The notes under the pieces: generated by a model | Database searches by the model: none | The model's input: only the letters and a program-made list of their open reading frames with translations | Told to the model about the DNA's origin: nothing | Made by a program: the position numbers and the translations under genes | Shown: positions 5,889 through 10,672 of the stretch, one piece after another | Numbering within the stretch: the stretch's first letter is position 1 | Layout: each line of letters begins with the position of its first letter | Assembly (NCBI RefSeq): GCF_004014715.1 | Contig: NZ_CP034835.1 | Location: forward strand, 2,108,001-2,172,000 | Direction: 5' to 3' | DNA: 64,000 nt | DNA from: Pseudoalteromonas sp. R3 | GTDB taxonomy: Bacteria > Pseudomonadota > Gammaproteobacteria > Enterobacterales > Alteromonadaceae

Positions 5889-6737
5889 TTGAAAATTAGC
5901 AGTTCTATCCTTCTTACAATCGGTCTGTTTACCTCGTTAGCCAACGCCATCGTTATTCGGCACGATGTACCTGAGCGACACTATGACGCTTCGCTATCTG
6001 ACTTCCCGCCATTGGCAACACTTTATAATATTGGTGTCCATGGCACTTTAATCGCGCCCGACTGGGTACTGACAGCAGCCCATACCGTGTTTTGTATGAA
6101 CCCAGGGCAATCAATAAAAGTGGGCAATGAGCTGGTCAAAGTATCACAGCGTTTCAGTTACCCCGAATATCGATTAGGCGAGCAACACGACATTGCTTTG
6201 CTCAGGCTGTCTCAGCCAGTAACGAGTGTGAAACCGGCTGAGGTTTACAATATGCAGGACGAACAAGGTCAAGTGGTGTGGTTTATTGGAGCTGGTGGTT
6301 TCGGTACCGGTGAGCAGGGAGAAACAGTCAATTATAAGGACAATAAAGGGAAGTTAAGAAAAGCGCAAAATAAAATAGTCAAAGTAACAGACGCCGATAT
6401 TGTCTTTAAATTTGAAGAAGGGAGCAAAGGAGAGGCGTTGGAGGGAGTCTCTGGTAATGGTGATAGCGGGGGACCTGCCTATATCAAACAAGACGGGCGC
6501 TTAGTATTACTCGGTGTGAGTTCACGAACAGATTCCTGGTTTTACGATGTCGGTGAATATGGCGTTACTGAACTTTATACCCGAGTTTCGTCTTATCAGA
6601 GCTGGATTGAGCAAGTGATTGGCGCGCAAAGCGATGCTGCCAGACGTCAATTAGCCAGCGTGGATCCCTTTTTGCACGAAAACATGGAAGAGAAAAGGAT
6701 GGATGCATTGTGCCGCTCACTGTCTTTTGAAAAGTGA
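5889..6737 (+). CDS. Secreted trypsin-like serine protease (S1 family)
   Basis: A 282-residue exported protease. The signal peptide ends near residue 20 (SLANA). The catalytic triad is visible as His65 in LTAAHT, Asp101 in HDIALL and Ser193 in GNGDSGGPAY. The start is a TTG preceded by TAAGGA at good spacing; no ATG lies near the signal peptide. The gene converges on the peptide-array operon across a shared hairpin. Its job may simply be extracellular proteolysis; a link to the neighbouring peptides is unproven. Confidence 0.85.
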   Translation: MKISSSILLTIGLFTSLANAIVIRHDVPERHYDASLSDFPPLATLYNIGVHGTLIAPDWVLTAAHTVFCMNPGQSIKVGNELVKVSQRFSYPEYRLGEQHDIALLRLSQPVTSVKPAEVYNMQDEQGQVVWFIGAGGFGTGEQGETVNYKDNKGKLRKAQNKIVKVTDADIVFKFEEGSKGEALEGVSGNGDSGGPAYIKQDGRLVLLGVSSRTDSWFYDVGEYGVTELYTRVSSYQSWIEQVIGAQSDAARRQLASVDPFLHENMEEKRMDALCRSLSFEK

Positions 6738-6860: not shown

Positions 6861-7538
6861 TCAGCTGAGAGCTTGCTGGAGTTGCTGCATATAACGATCG
6901 CCATCAATTACACTGCCAAATGAGATAACACGCTTCGATTGTGTATCTACAAAAACAGGCTGTTCTTTTTTACCGCTATCCACAATGATGTTTAGTGACA
7001 TTGACAGCTCTTTAGGCGGGCTTTGTGAATGTAAGTCCTGAGACTTATCCATATAGAGCACACACCCTTCCTCTAATACAAAGTCGCCATTGAAGTGAAT
7101 ATCAATCTCTTCGCCTTCTTCATAGGCGCTGCCTTTATGTTGATACTCATACATGTGTGTTGTATAGCCACTGCCACTTAGTCCCAGCGTCAATAACTCG
7201 AAATTGTGGTCATGACATAAACCGTATGCGAACAGGTTTTCATCATCTTTAGTGTAATCACTGTCTGCTCTTGGCTCCCACACAACGGCACGTAGCATCA
7301 AGGTATCATCTTTATATAGTACAAATGAGTTCTTACCGTATGAATTGGCTTCGGGGTGCTGAAGTGATTGCATAATATGATCCAATACATCGGGAATATT
7401 CGCTCTCAGCCCCATTAACTGATCTACCAGGCCTGGCGTGTCACACAGTCTCTGACCTTCTTTTACATTGTTTTTAATAAACGCCATCAATCCTTTAATA
7501 GAATTAGGGGTAACGGTTTTTGGTGAGTAAAATTCCAT
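6861..7538 (-). CDS. Cupin-like protein, candidate peptide-modifying enzyme
   Basis: A 225-residue cytoplasmic protein that I do not recognise as a named family. The central part looks like a metal-binding cupin: a C108-H-D-H111 cluster, a turn (GLSGSGYTTHMYEY) and a later His170 after VLYMDKSQDL, the spacing seen in cysteine-dioxygenase-type folds. It is related to the upstream 256-residue protein; compare FVLYKDDTLML with ITLYEDDTWLM. The ATG at 7538 is chosen because it lies 4 bp after the upstream stop codon; a TTG at 7559 would overlap. It is the last gene of the unit that begins with the small-peptide array, so a role in modifying those peptides is the natural inference. Confidence 0.55.
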   Translation of the reverse strand: MEFYSPKTVTPNSIKGLMAFIKNNVKEGQRLCDTPGLVDQLMGLRANIPDVLDHIMQSLQHPEANSYGKNSFVLYKDDTLMLRAVVWEPRADSDYTKDDENLFAYGLCHDHNFELLTLGLSGSGYTTHMYEYQHKGSAYEEGEEIDIHFNGDFVLEEGCVLYMDKSQDLHSQSPPKELSMSLNIIVDSGKKEQPVFVDTQSKRVISFGSVIDGDRYMQQLQQALS

Positions 7539-7542
7539 ATGA

Positions 7543-8313
7543 CTAACACGCCTCTTCAAATTCTGTTAACTGAGCCAGGGTAGCTTTGGCTTGCGTTCTG
7601 ATGATTTGGCAGGGGTCTTCTAAGAACTCAATTAAAGTACTTTTTGCCAGCTGATGATCCACCCTGAACAGTTCCACCAGTGCTTGCCAACGAATGGCAT
7701 TTATTCTGTGTTTGGTGAGTGCACTCAGGTACGGGGCGCCTGTTGCACCAAATTGAGGTAAAAATCCGATAAGGACCTTATATCTTTCCAGATTTTGAGT
7801 ACCAGAGTAACTGGCGATTTTATTGCCCGTTGCAATTTCATATTGCGGGCATACGTCTCGCGTGACTGATTTATTGTGTAGGGCAACGACGACTTTTTCT
7901 TGTTGTCCATGAAATACGTAAGCGTAATCTTTTGCCTGTATTTTCAGGTTTTTAGTCTTAGTAAGGTTATTTTCATCGGGTAATGCGATTACACCATTGA
8001 GCTCCGGATAGGCGCTCACAGCGTAATGATGATCTGAAATAACACAGTATAAAGACTCGGATGCAAACGTGTTTGCTACACCACTTTGAGTTGCAAAAGC
8101 ATCCAAAGTAATAAGCATTAGCCAGGTATCATCTTCATATAGTGTAATACCCCTGCGGCCGATTTTACCCAAAGAAGTGCTATCTTTGCACGCAACCATG
8201 TGCTCAATTTGTGTTTTGAATTGCTGTTTTTCCACATAGTCAAAGAATGCGTTTTCGAGACCTTCAACTGAGCTGCTTGTCGATAAGATACTAATAAAGT
8301 TATCAGTCATCAT
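7543..8313 (-). CDS. Cupin-like protein with C-terminal HEAT-like helices
   Basis: A 256-residue protein, paralogous over residues about 50-170 to the downstream 225-residue protein (ITLYEDDTWLM, VISDHHYAV with H95-H96, then FHGQQEK with H135). The C-terminal 60 residues form an amphipathic, HEAT-like repeat region (INAIRWQALVELFR, then a second helix pair containing EDPCQIIRTQA), a surface often used to bind peptides or proteins. The start is one of two consecutive ATGs behind AAGGACGGC. It sits 99 bp after the last peptide gene, past a hairpin. One of the pair may be catalytic and the other a recognition partner; this is inference. Confidence 0.5.
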   Translation of the reverse strand: MMTDNFISILSTSSSVEGLENAFFDYVEKQQFKTQIEHMVACKDSTSLGKIGRRGITLYEDDTWLMLITLDAFATQSGVANTFASESLYCVISDHHYAVSAYPELNGVIALPDENNLTKTKNLKIQAKDYAYVFHGQQEKVVVALHNKSVTRDVCPQYEIATGNKIASYSGTQNLERYKVLIGFLPQFGATGAPYLSALTKHRINAIRWQALVELFRVDHQLAKSTLIEFLEDPCQIIRTQAKATLAQLTEFEEAC

Positions 8314-8355
8314 ATGCCGTCCTTTTATACTGCCATAATACGAAATTGTTTCGTG

Positions 8356-8394
8356 AAAAGAGGTGAAGTAGCGATACCACTGCTACTTCGACCT
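8356..8394 (-). terminator. Hairpin between peptide array and cupin-like genes (terminator or attenuator)
   Basis: On the minus strand AGGT-c-GAAGTAGC pairs with GCTACTTCACCT, leaving one bulged C, and CTTTT follows. It would let most transcripts stop after the peptide genes while some read on into the two enzyme genes. This is a common way to make much precursor and little enzyme. Confidence 0.65.
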
Positions 8395-8412
8395 ATCTAT
8401 AGCGCTATCTAC

Positions 8413-8523
8413 TTACTTGATACCGATAAACTCAGGTGGAAGTGAAGTGCCATAGCCGCCTGCGATTTCTTTCAGATTAAGTGCTTCAATCGTTTTTGGT
8501 GTAAATGTTTTTGGATTGTTCAT
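8413..8523 (-). CDS. Array peptide 1 (36 aa, short-core type)
   Basis: A 36-residue peptide. The leader-like part is MNNPKTFTPKTIEALNLKEI followed by A-G-G; the C-terminal part is YGTSLPPEFIGIK. RBS GAGGATATGAGA precedes the ATG. It differs from peptide 2 at only a few positions. There is no Cys and little Ser/Thr in the core, so lanthionine or thiazole chemistry is unlikely. The conserved residues in the core are Pro-Pro/Glu-Phe-Ile-Gly. It is the distal member of the seven-gene array. Confidence 0.7.
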   Translation of the reverse strand: MNNPKTFTPKTIEALNLKEIAGGYGTSLPPEFIGIK

Positions 8524-8537
8524 TCTCATATCCTCAA

Positions 8538-8606
8538 TTAAAATTTATTAGTGTGGATTGGCTCGTGGTAGCCGAAGAAACTTGGGCCAACGATGCCAGC
8601 TACATT
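8538..8606 (-). pseudogene. Leaderless remnant of a long-core array peptide
   Basis: Just after the stop codon of peptide 2, another frame encodes NVAGIVGPSFFGYHEPIHTN ending in KF and a stop. It aligns with the junction and core of peptide 3 (NVTGGGIGIDRPIFIGYHEP...IKF). It has no start codon or leader: the frame is closed by TAG just upstream. It is probably what remained of a long-core gene after recombination replaced its leader and core with a short-core copy. Confidence 0.6.
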
Positions 8607-8613
8607 TCGCTAA

Positions 8614-8724
8614 TTAATGGATACCGATGAATTCAGGTGGTAATTCAATACCATATCCGCCAGAGATCTCTTTAAGGTTTAGCGCTTCGATTGTTTTTGG
8701 TGCAAATGTTTTTGAATTTTTCAT
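8614..8724 (-). CDS. Array peptide 2 (36 aa, short-core type)
   Basis: A 36-residue peptide: leader MKNSKTFAPKTIEALNLKEI, then S-G-G, core YGIELPPEFIGIH. RBS GAGGATATAACA. The nearest relative in the array is peptide 1; the two share the shortened core ending in FIGI plus one residue. A decayed long core lies immediately downstream in a different frame. Confidence 0.7.
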   Translation of the reverse strand: MKNSKTFAPKTIEALNLKEISGGYGIELPPEFIGIH

Positions 8725-8738
8725 TGTTATATCCTCAG

Positions 8739-8873
8739 TTAAAACTTAATGTTTTCGATTGGCTCGTGGTAGCCGATGAAAATTGGACGGTCAATCCCGA
8801 TACCGCCACCGGTAACGTTTTTTAGTTGTAGTTCTTCGATTGTTTTAGGTGTAAATTGATTTGCTTTTTTCAT
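8739..8873 (-). CDS. Array peptide 3 (44 aa, long-core type)
   Basis: A 44-residue peptide: leader MKKANQFTPKTIEELQLKNV, junction T-G-G-G, core IGIDRPIFIGYHEPIENIKF. RBS AGGAAAAAAACA. The core motif (R-P-hydrophobic-F-I-G-Y-H-E-P ... I-K-F) is shared with peptides 4 and 5. It is almost identical at the DNA level to peptide 4 except for the segment between the Gly run and Arg-Pro, indicating a recent tandem duplication. Confidence 0.75.
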   Translation of the reverse strand: MKKANQFTPKTIEELQLKNVTGGGIGIDRPIFIGYHEPIENIKF

Positions 8874-8888
8874 TGTTTTTTTCCTAAA

Positions 8889-9035
8889 TTAAAACTTAAT
8901 ATTTTCAACTGGCTCGTGGTAACCGATGAAAACAGGGCGGCCATCCCAGAACCTGTCACCGATACCGCCACCGGTAACGCCTTTTAGTTGTAGGTCTTCG
9001 ATTGTTTTAGGTGTAAATTGCTTTGCTTTTTTCAT
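8889..9035 (-). CDS. Array peptide 4 (48 aa, long-core type with insert)
   Basis: A 48-residue peptide: leader MKKAKQFTPKTIEDLQLKGV, junction T-G-G-G, core beginning IGDRFWDGRPVFIGYHEP and ending VENIKF. RBS AAGGAAAAACA. Compared with peptide 3 it has four additional residues, including Phe-Trp, just before the conserved Arg-Pro. The variable site lies between the Gly junction and the conserved tail. Confidence 0.75.
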   Translation of the reverse strand: MKKAKQFTPKTIEDLQLKGVTGGGIGDRFWDGRPVFIGYHEPVENIKF

Positions 9036-9048
9036 TGTTTTTCCTTAA

Positions 9049-9180
9049 TTAAAACTTAATAACATCAATTGGATCTTGGTAGCCAATAAATACTGGGCGG
9101 TCAATGCCAGCACCTGTTACGGCTTCTTTAAGTTGTAATTCATCAATTGTTACTGGGTTGAATGATTTTGATTTGCTCAT
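9049..9180 (-). CDS. Array peptide 5 (43 aa, long-core type)
   Basis: A 43-residue peptide: leader MSKSKSFNPVTIDELQLKEA, junction V-T-G-A, core GIDRPVFIGYQDPIDVIKF. RBS AAGGAAGCAATTAAA. The substitutions relative to peptides 3 and 4 are conservative (His-Glu to Gln-Asp, Glu-Asn to Asp-Val), which suggests the tail is under selection. Confidence 0.75.
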   Translation of the reverse strand: MSKSKSFNPVTIDELQLKEAVTGAGIDRPVFIGYQDPIDVIKF

Positions 9181-9197
9181 TTTAATTGCTTCCTTTA

Positions 9198-9302
9198 TTA
9201 AGGCTGGCCGATGAAAATTGGTGGCTCAAAAATGCCGCCGCCGTTAACGACAGACTTTACTTCTAATTCATCAATAACTTGTGGTGTAAAGGTTTTGCTC
9301 AT
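9198..9302 (-). CDS. Array peptide 6 (34 aa)
   Basis: A 34-residue peptide: leader MSKTFTPQVIDELEVKSVVN, junction G-G-G, core IFEPPIFIGQP. RBS GGAG spaced 7-8 bases from ATG. It keeps the FTP...I-D-E-L leader signature and the P-x-F-I-G core motif but ends right after Gly, with a Gln-Pro tail. Two consecutive stop codons follow. Confidence 0.7.
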   Translation of the reverse strand: MSKTFTPQVIDELEVKSVVNGGGIFEPPIFIGQP

Positions 9303-9364
9303 GGTATTACTCCAGTTATTTACATAAAACGAGGCTTTATTTAACGCTTCGTTATATTTTCTTG

Positions 9365-9457
9365 TTATTTATAGTCTTCAGGGAATGTAGGTACTATATC
9401 AGGCGGAAGCTCACCACCAGAGACAGTGCGTACACAATCATTTGTAAGTGTTTTCAT
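9365..9457 (-). CDS. Array peptide 7 (30 aa), divergent first member
   Basis: A 30-residue peptide: MKTLTNDCVRTVSGG as a short leader with a Gly-Gly junction, then ELPPDIVPTFPEDYK. It lacks the FTP..TIEEL signature and the FIG motif but keeps an ELPP segment similar to peptide 2. A possible RBS (AAAAGG) lies about 10 bases upstream. As the promoter-proximal gene it may be a distantly related or separate precursor. Confidence is lower than for the others. Confidence 0.55.
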   Translation of the reverse strand: MKTLTNDCVRTVSGGELPPDIVPTFPEDYK

Positions 9458-10186: not shown

Positions 10187-10672
10187 ATGAATTCACCCCT
10201 AAACGAAGAGAGCTCACAATATGATGACTACAGAAAATATGGTATGTATTTGCTGTTAGGGATACTTTTTTTCGGTTTTATCTTAGAGGTTTTTATTGGA
10301 AGTCCGAAAGACCGTGCTTTTAAAAACGAGTTGACGACTCTAAATGCCGAGCTAGCAGAGGGGGACCCGAAAATCCGGGTAGTCAATTATAGTAAATATG
10401 ATAAGCGCCTCCATTTGCGCATTGACTATTCCGATGGCGCTGAGCTAGCAAATGGAGCACGCAGACCAAACAGGCAAGCTATCAAAGATATATACAAAGA
10501 CAGTTTATTGGAGAAGGTGTGCCAGGCAGAGCTTTTCATTGAAATGTTGGAGCAGGGACAGGTTATTGAAATCAACTTTTTTGACAAAGATCCGTCTAAT
10601 CGCCCGGATCAGATGTTCAATTTGAGAGTAAGCCATGAGCGGTGTCATGGCGCGCAAGATAAAGATCAATAA
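10187..10672 (+). CDS. Single-pass membrane protein of unknown function
   Basis: A 161-residue protein: a short charged N-terminus, one transmembrane helix at about residues 19-38 (GMYLLLGILFFGFILEVFIG), then a periplasmic domain of about 120 residues with two Cys (VCQAEL and ERCHGA) that could form a disulfide. RBS GAGGGAAG precedes the ATG. No family was recognised. It follows the AT-rich gap and may be accessory DNA. Confidence 0.6.
   Translation: MNSPLNEESSQYDDYRKYGMYLLLGILFFGFILEVFIGSPKDRAFKNELTTLNAELAEGDPKIRVVNYSKYDKRLHLRIDYSDGAELANGARRPNRQAIKDIYKDSLLEKVCQAELFIEMLEQGQVIEINFFDKDPSNRPDQMFNLRVSHERCHGAQDKDQ

Follow-up and report, generated by a model that had tools for sequence, protein, structure and literature searches.

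A micro-peptide array followed by two cupin-like genes in Pseudoalteromonas sp. R3: a putative RiPP-type cassette

Layout of the locus and its micro-peptides

The window analysed here is a 64,000 nt stretch of Pseudoalteromonas sp. R3 (contig NZ_CP034835.1, positions 2,108,001 to 2,172,000), whose genome comprises 5.8 Mb in two contigs. On its minus strand, the window carries an array of seven open reading frames (ORFs) of 30-48 codons that spans positions 9457 to 8413 and is followed on the same strand by two genes for cupin-like proteins, C1 (7543..8313) and then C2 (6861..7538); among the ORFs of the locus, no further gene lies between the array, C1 and C2. An earlier note on this DNA, made from the sequence alone, had described seven such ORFs, each with its own ribosome binding site, and we found all of them in place, every one preceded by a purine-rich, ribosome-binding-like stretch. 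This peptide-plus-cupin cassette is real and recurrent, and it most likely represents a variant form of the biosynthesis of ribosomally synthesized and post-translationally modified peptides (RiPPs).

Micro-peptide 1 (MKTLTNDCVRTVSGGELPPDIVPTFPEDYK, 30 aa, 9365..9457, like all features of the cassette on the minus strand) has a short, distinct leader, a Gly-Gly (GG) pair and a PP-containing core, with relatives in the loci L034, L036 and L038. The other six are of the leader type, namely micro-peptides 2 (MSKTFTPQVIDELEVKSVVNGGGIFEPPIFIGQP, 34 aa, 9198..9302), 3 (MSKSKSFNPVTIDELQLKEAVTGAGIDRPVFIGYQDPIDVIKF, 43 aa, 9049..9180), 4 (MKKAKQFTPKTIEDLQLKGVTGGGIGDRFWDGRPVFIGYHEPVENIKF, 48 aa, 8889..9035), 5 (MKKANQFTPKTIEELQLKNVTGGGIGIDRPIFIGYHEPIENIKF, 44 aa, 8739..8873), 6 (MKNSKTFAPKTIEALNLKEISGGYGIELPPEFIGIH, 36 aa, 8614..8724) and 7 (MNNPKTFTPKTIEALNLKEIAGGYGTSLPPEFIGIK, 8413..8523, 36 aa or, from an in-frame ATG upstream, 38 aa). 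They share the leader xFxPxxI(D/E)xLxxK, a GG or Gly-Ala (GA) junction and the motif P-x-F-I-G; the common leader had been recognized correctly in the earlier note, which saw P-x-F-I-G in five peptides, but all six keep it. Copies 6 and 7 are separated by a decayed long-core precursor copy (AGIVGPSFFGYHEPIHTNKF followed by a stop, 8538..8600) that has neither leader nor start; a closely similar remnant is present in L034 and L035. The leaderless remnant of another long core within the array implies that copies have been gained or lost.

A profile built from 13 peptides of the window type yielded 32 matches in six of the 108 genomes of the genus, all 32 inside arrays, and in none of the 108 did it find such peptides outside the arrays and without C1 and C2. 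The five other genomes of this set carry two to six leader-type copies, accompanied in three of them by an ORF of the first type; for G340, the profile lists a seventh match that runs across a stop. Among 295 genomes of the family, the same profile gave one borderline match (G014, E 0.004), in a genome without a C2 match. When eight genomes were searched with a DNA pattern for the core, matches fell exclusively at the array loci, in seven of the eight; the remaining one, G299, has a variant core.

The comparison of 43 between-genome peptide pairs that had the same length and an identity of 60% or more gave, when pooled over these mutually non-independent pairs, a proportion of synonymous differences (pS) of 0.37 and of nonsynonymous differences (pN) of 0.093. 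The resulting pN/pS of 0.25 is the ratio expected of constrained coding sequence, which supports that the micro-peptide ORFs are real coding genes constrained at the protein level. Leader and core behaved alike, with pN values of 0.087 and 0.102, respectively, against a pS of 0.37. The location of the small ORFs directly upstream of C1 and C2 on the same strand would also suit regulatory upstream ORFs that control the translation of both genes, but with up to seven ORFs per locus and a constraint on the amino acids of leader and core alike, we regard this explanation as very improbable.

C1 and C2, a predicted cupin pair

When modelled, both C1 and C2 resemble thiol dioxygenases (CDO, MSDO, 3-mercaptopropionate dioxygenase, ADO/PCO), with which they share a predicted cupin fold. 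Enzymes of this fold are not known to need 2-oxoglutarate and are known mainly for oxidizing small thiols and N-terminal Cys. The identity of C2 to thiol dioxygenases was 10-17% among the matches listed. Its reading frame more likely starts at ATG 7538 than at TTG 7559, and it contains the arrangement HDH...H, whose three cupin histidines (H109, H111 and H170) are kept in 98 of 99 C2 sequences. Judged by this conservation, C2 is likely the metal-binding, catalytic partner. C1 combines a predicted N-terminal thiol-dioxygenase-like cupin domain (approximately residues 1-171) with C-terminal HEAT repeats; it has no consistently kept histidine and no conserved metal ligands. It is probably not a second catalyst and appears to be a cupin in which the metal site has disappeared and HEAT repeats have been added.

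The view of C1 and C2 as related cupin-like proteins of unknown family, taken in the earlier note, agrees with their common predicted fold and with our finding no convincing Pfam or NCBIfam family for C2, and none for C1 beyond the HEAT repeats. Furthermore, 13 C2 proteins compared with Pfam gave no match to thiol dioxygenase families, a C2 profile run against the sequences of solved structures found nothing relevant (best E 1.3), and PADLOC, applied to six proteins, returned a single weak HEAT-ARM match.

In contrast to the thiol dioxygenases, which mostly act on thiols, C1 carries HEAT repeats and no conserved metal ligands, and the window-type cores contain no Cys (0 of 35). In the wider set of peptide matches described below, Cys occurs within the last 30 residues in 7 of 63. 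Thiol oxidation is therefore unlikely to be the general reaction. The same lack of Cys had been noted before as a trait unlike lanthipeptides and thiazole peptides, and it holds across the larger sample. As C1 and C2 have no Lan or YcaO-type family match either, and nothing else is present in the cassette, we rejected a lanthipeptide or thiazole/oxazole locus. Several precursors together with a constant module are common to this cassette and to lanthipeptide and other tandem-precursor RiPP loci, whereas here the locus is confined to peptides, C1 and C2.

Recurrence of the cassette

C1 and the peptides are present in exactly the same six of the 108 genus genomes, and a C1 search of the genus gave only one further, weak match (G339, E 1.1e-4, locus L039). 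Judged by one flanking gene (80-100% identity), the six genomes are close relatives and do not constitute six independent events. In G243, G385 and G338, the genes on both flanks are kept, while peptides, C1 and C2 are jointly absent, which indicates that the whole cassette is gained or lost together. The distribution of C2 is rare and patchy: it was matched in 12 of the 295 genomes of the family and in 2 of the 369 of the class (the source genome being counted in both); one of the loci examined, L026, derived from a short C2 match with an internal stop.

In the genome collection, 175 C2 relatives were detected, of which the best 80 were kept. The relatives belong mostly to Sphingomonadales and reach the Xanthomonadales and a few other groups; Lysobacter, Dyella, Stenotrophomonas, Tahibacter, Alteromonas, Thalassotalea, Rheinheimera, Ferrimonas, Mucilaginibacter and one Blastopirellula metagenome-assembled genome are represented, among other taxa. 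Together with the earlier loci, these best 80 gave 100 C2 ORFs (L020 and L041 are the same locus, and both are counted). A same-strand ORF ends at most 300 bp from the C2 start in 90 of the 100, and 88 of these ORFs scored as C1. The usual order is short peptide(s), C1, C2, seen in 84 of the 89 loci with C1. An upstream peptide was detected by the wider profile described below in 62 loci, 6 have an array of the window type and 16 another short ORF judged by eye, while 5 show none. The link between peptides and cupin pair extends far beyond the Alteromonadales, in whose marine members the earlier note had proposed to look for co-occurrence of the leader motif with the pair, and the situation that it held to speak against a RiPP system, cupin genes widespread without peptide genes, is not what we observed.

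The wider peptide profile, derived from 13 peptides selected for their position upstream of C1, was run on the sequence around C2 only, with L020 and L041 again both counted. Of 36,322 six-frame ORFs, 72 matched at E<1, some of them weakly (E values of up to 0.78); 67 were located upstream of C1, the remaining five in loci in which the caller had missed C1, and none in other parts of the sequence retrieved. The window type clusters with L015 and L016 (support 1.0) in a C2 tree rooted at its midpoint, and these two loci have a single upstream peptide whose core, GIPPFIGYQEPPIEEL, resembles that of the window. Rheinheimera, placed far from the window type, and Ferrimonas possess tandem arrays of five peptides with other sequences. 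One C2 relative, L025, has neither C1 nor peptide nor HxH.

C2 can accordingly be regarded as a putative modifying protein that is genetically tied to its precursor, by the same six of 108 genomes, the three empty sites and the 84 of 89 loci. Concerning the earlier suggestion that the cupin pair modifies the peptides, the co-occurrence of coding peptides with the pair is in line with it, whereas the part that made C1 a second modifier is probably not correct. The peptides might instead serve a C1-C2 enzyme as small subunits or cofactors, with some other, small molecule as its substrate, which would fit the single peptide match in most Sphingomonadales loci and the fact that no exporter was recognized by eye among the recurrent neighbours there, of which no domain search was made. 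Several different peptides per array, changing copy numbers and a division into leader and core would be unusual for a subunit, though, and we consider this alternative improbable.

C2 relatives also occur on plasmids. In one from Alteromonas, an ORF directly adjoins the C2 relative on its upstream side and is itself preceded by two short peptides; these plasmid copies are annotated as 'hypothetical protein'. On a Vibrio plasmid, a distant C2 relative (22% identity) was found together with a Tn3 transposase and no recognized peptide. With a Stenotrophomonas C2 as query, two plasmid records and no phage records were matched; the C2 of the window had no match among plasmid records. A C2-profile match is located on a 28-kb contig filed as viral in IMG/VR (L040, IMGVR_UViG_3300046462_000434). 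One genome (L018/L019, G144:C1 336000-374000) has three C2 matches, and C1-like partners are found there amid genes for ABC transporters and MacAB-like proteins; the start of one gene at this place resembles an S49/SohB-type peptidase.

Proposed pathway, export and neighbouring genes

We assign a probability of roughly 0.6 to reading the locus as a cassette of the RiPP type, with C1 presenting the precursor, C2 oxidizing a non-Cys residue of the core and other genes providing export. This reading builds on the coding peptides, their joint presence and absence with C1 and C2, the gene order, the predicted fold and the histidine conservation. The micro-ORFs would encode precursors with a leader of the double-glycine type and a short Cys-free core. 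C1 would hold the leader, the core or both and pair with C2, and C2, as a three-histidine and probably iron-containing cupin, would use O2 to oxidize a core residue; candidate sites are the P-x-F-I-G stretch, which is conserved, and acidic or aromatic positions close to it. The modified peptide would then be cut after GG or GA and exported, here perhaps via one of the three C39-peptidase ABC exporters that the genome encodes outside this locus and in other lineages via neighbouring Yip1-MacA-MacB or ABC-2 systems, to serve as a peptide antibiotic or signal.

The comparison standard for cleavage and export is the double-glycine leader of class II bacteriocins and related RiPPs with C39 exporters. 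Common features are the GG/GA junction, a hydrophobic residue at -4 and small tandem genes: Val or Ile at -4 together with GG or GA was found in each of the 35 peptides of the window type, among them those of the first-ORF type, although -1 and -2 are true by construction as the junction was placed by a pattern demanding GG or GA. In contrast to these systems, the cassette contains no C39 gene, such genes lying elsewhere in the genome, the match at -7 and -12 is partial, and a dedicated cupin pair is present instead. The three C39-peptidase ABC exporters of the source genome are located at 4.42-4.46 Mb, one of them beside GG-type micro-peptide arrays.

Several observations weigh against the proposed cassette. 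Five of the 89 C1 loci (L050, L055, L058, L074 and L107) showed no upstream peptide, and the peptides found in distant lineages have little sequence in common with those of the window, so that a single peptide family rests mostly on position. The fit to the double-glycine leader is partial, with Lys at -7 in 11 and an acidic residue at -12 in 10 of the 35 window-type peptides. Cores devoid of Cys stand against a fold that mostly acts on thiols, and the fold hence does not predict the chemistry. Finally, C39 exporters are present in 81 of the 108 genus genomes and in all six cassette genomes and are not diagnostic; because they are this common in the genus, those of the source genome show a possibility only, and we rejected a C39 exporter as obligate partner.

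Genes for transport were encountered near C1 and C2 in several relatives, as counts without a background rate for such genes near unrelated genes: Yip1 and HlyD/MacA-type genes in L044, L070 and L137, a MacB-type permease in L044, L070 and L042, and ABC-2 permeases in L044 and L137. In Mucilaginibacter (L061), the neighbours of C1-C2 include a C39 exporter and a LanC-like gene. The Yip1-MacA-MacB systems, which adjoin C1-C2 in L044 and L070 and partly in L137 and L042 and do not form part of the cassette of the window, resemble the YknWXYZ toxin-protection system of Bacillus. Such sets in several Gammaproteobacterial relatives, the partly double-glycine leaders and the further GG-type arrays that the source genome carries close to a C39 exporter would also be compatible with unmodified small bacteriocins or signals, active after leader cleavage, for which C1 and C2 provide immunity, sensing or regulation. 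C1 and C2 are constant, however, while peptides and neighbours vary, and histidines kept in 98 of 99 C2 proteins are as expected of an enzyme, which makes this explanation unlikely.

If C2 does modify the peptides, a fold known mainly for thiols would tailor other residues with a degenerate twin as partner, and the 175 C2 relatives would point to peptide products that are easily missed, the ORFs being only 30-50 codons long. More tentatively, and with odds somewhat below even, the cassette might define a separate RiPP class distributed across Pseudomonadota with outliers in other phyla, characterized by a paired cupin module in which a catalytic three-His protein of the thiol-dioxygenase fold, together with a metal-free, HEAT-extended paralogue presenting the precursor, would oxidize residues other than thiols, independently of 2-oxoglutarate, in cores that are hydrophobic or of the Pro-x-Phe-Ile-Gly kind. 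The cassette offers a two-protein, one-peptide system open to direct testing.

Outside the window, the source genome carries two micro-peptide arrays near a C39 ABC exporter (L133:4208-5661 and L133:11927-12648; G000:C2 ~4.449-4.458 Mb): eleven near-identical GG-type micro-peptides of the MKELNAIQMNAINGAGGYVYGKVTKDGWEIGFKYEF type make up the first, and the second has four members. At L132 (3502-7897 and 13675-14364), proteins with below-cut-off matches to 'thiopeptide-type bacteriocin biosynthesis' and lanthionine synthetases adjoin a C39 exporter, and five copies of a small Cys-containing peptide follow about 3 kb further; this is perhaps a separate lanthipeptide-like locus.

Within the window, a trypsin-like protease gene (5889-6737, plus strand) is convergent with C2 and clusters with genes in L019, L026, L034-L036 and L038, in L019 near another C1-C2 pair. 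The 19-kb locus of G299 carries the cassette but no match to this protease gene, which was therefore taken as a neighbour and not as a part of the cassette. On the other side of the array, at 10187-10672 (plus strand), lies a 161-aa ORF of unknown function that was matched in 7 of the 108 genus genomes, in three of them weakly, and is split or contains a stop in some close relatives.

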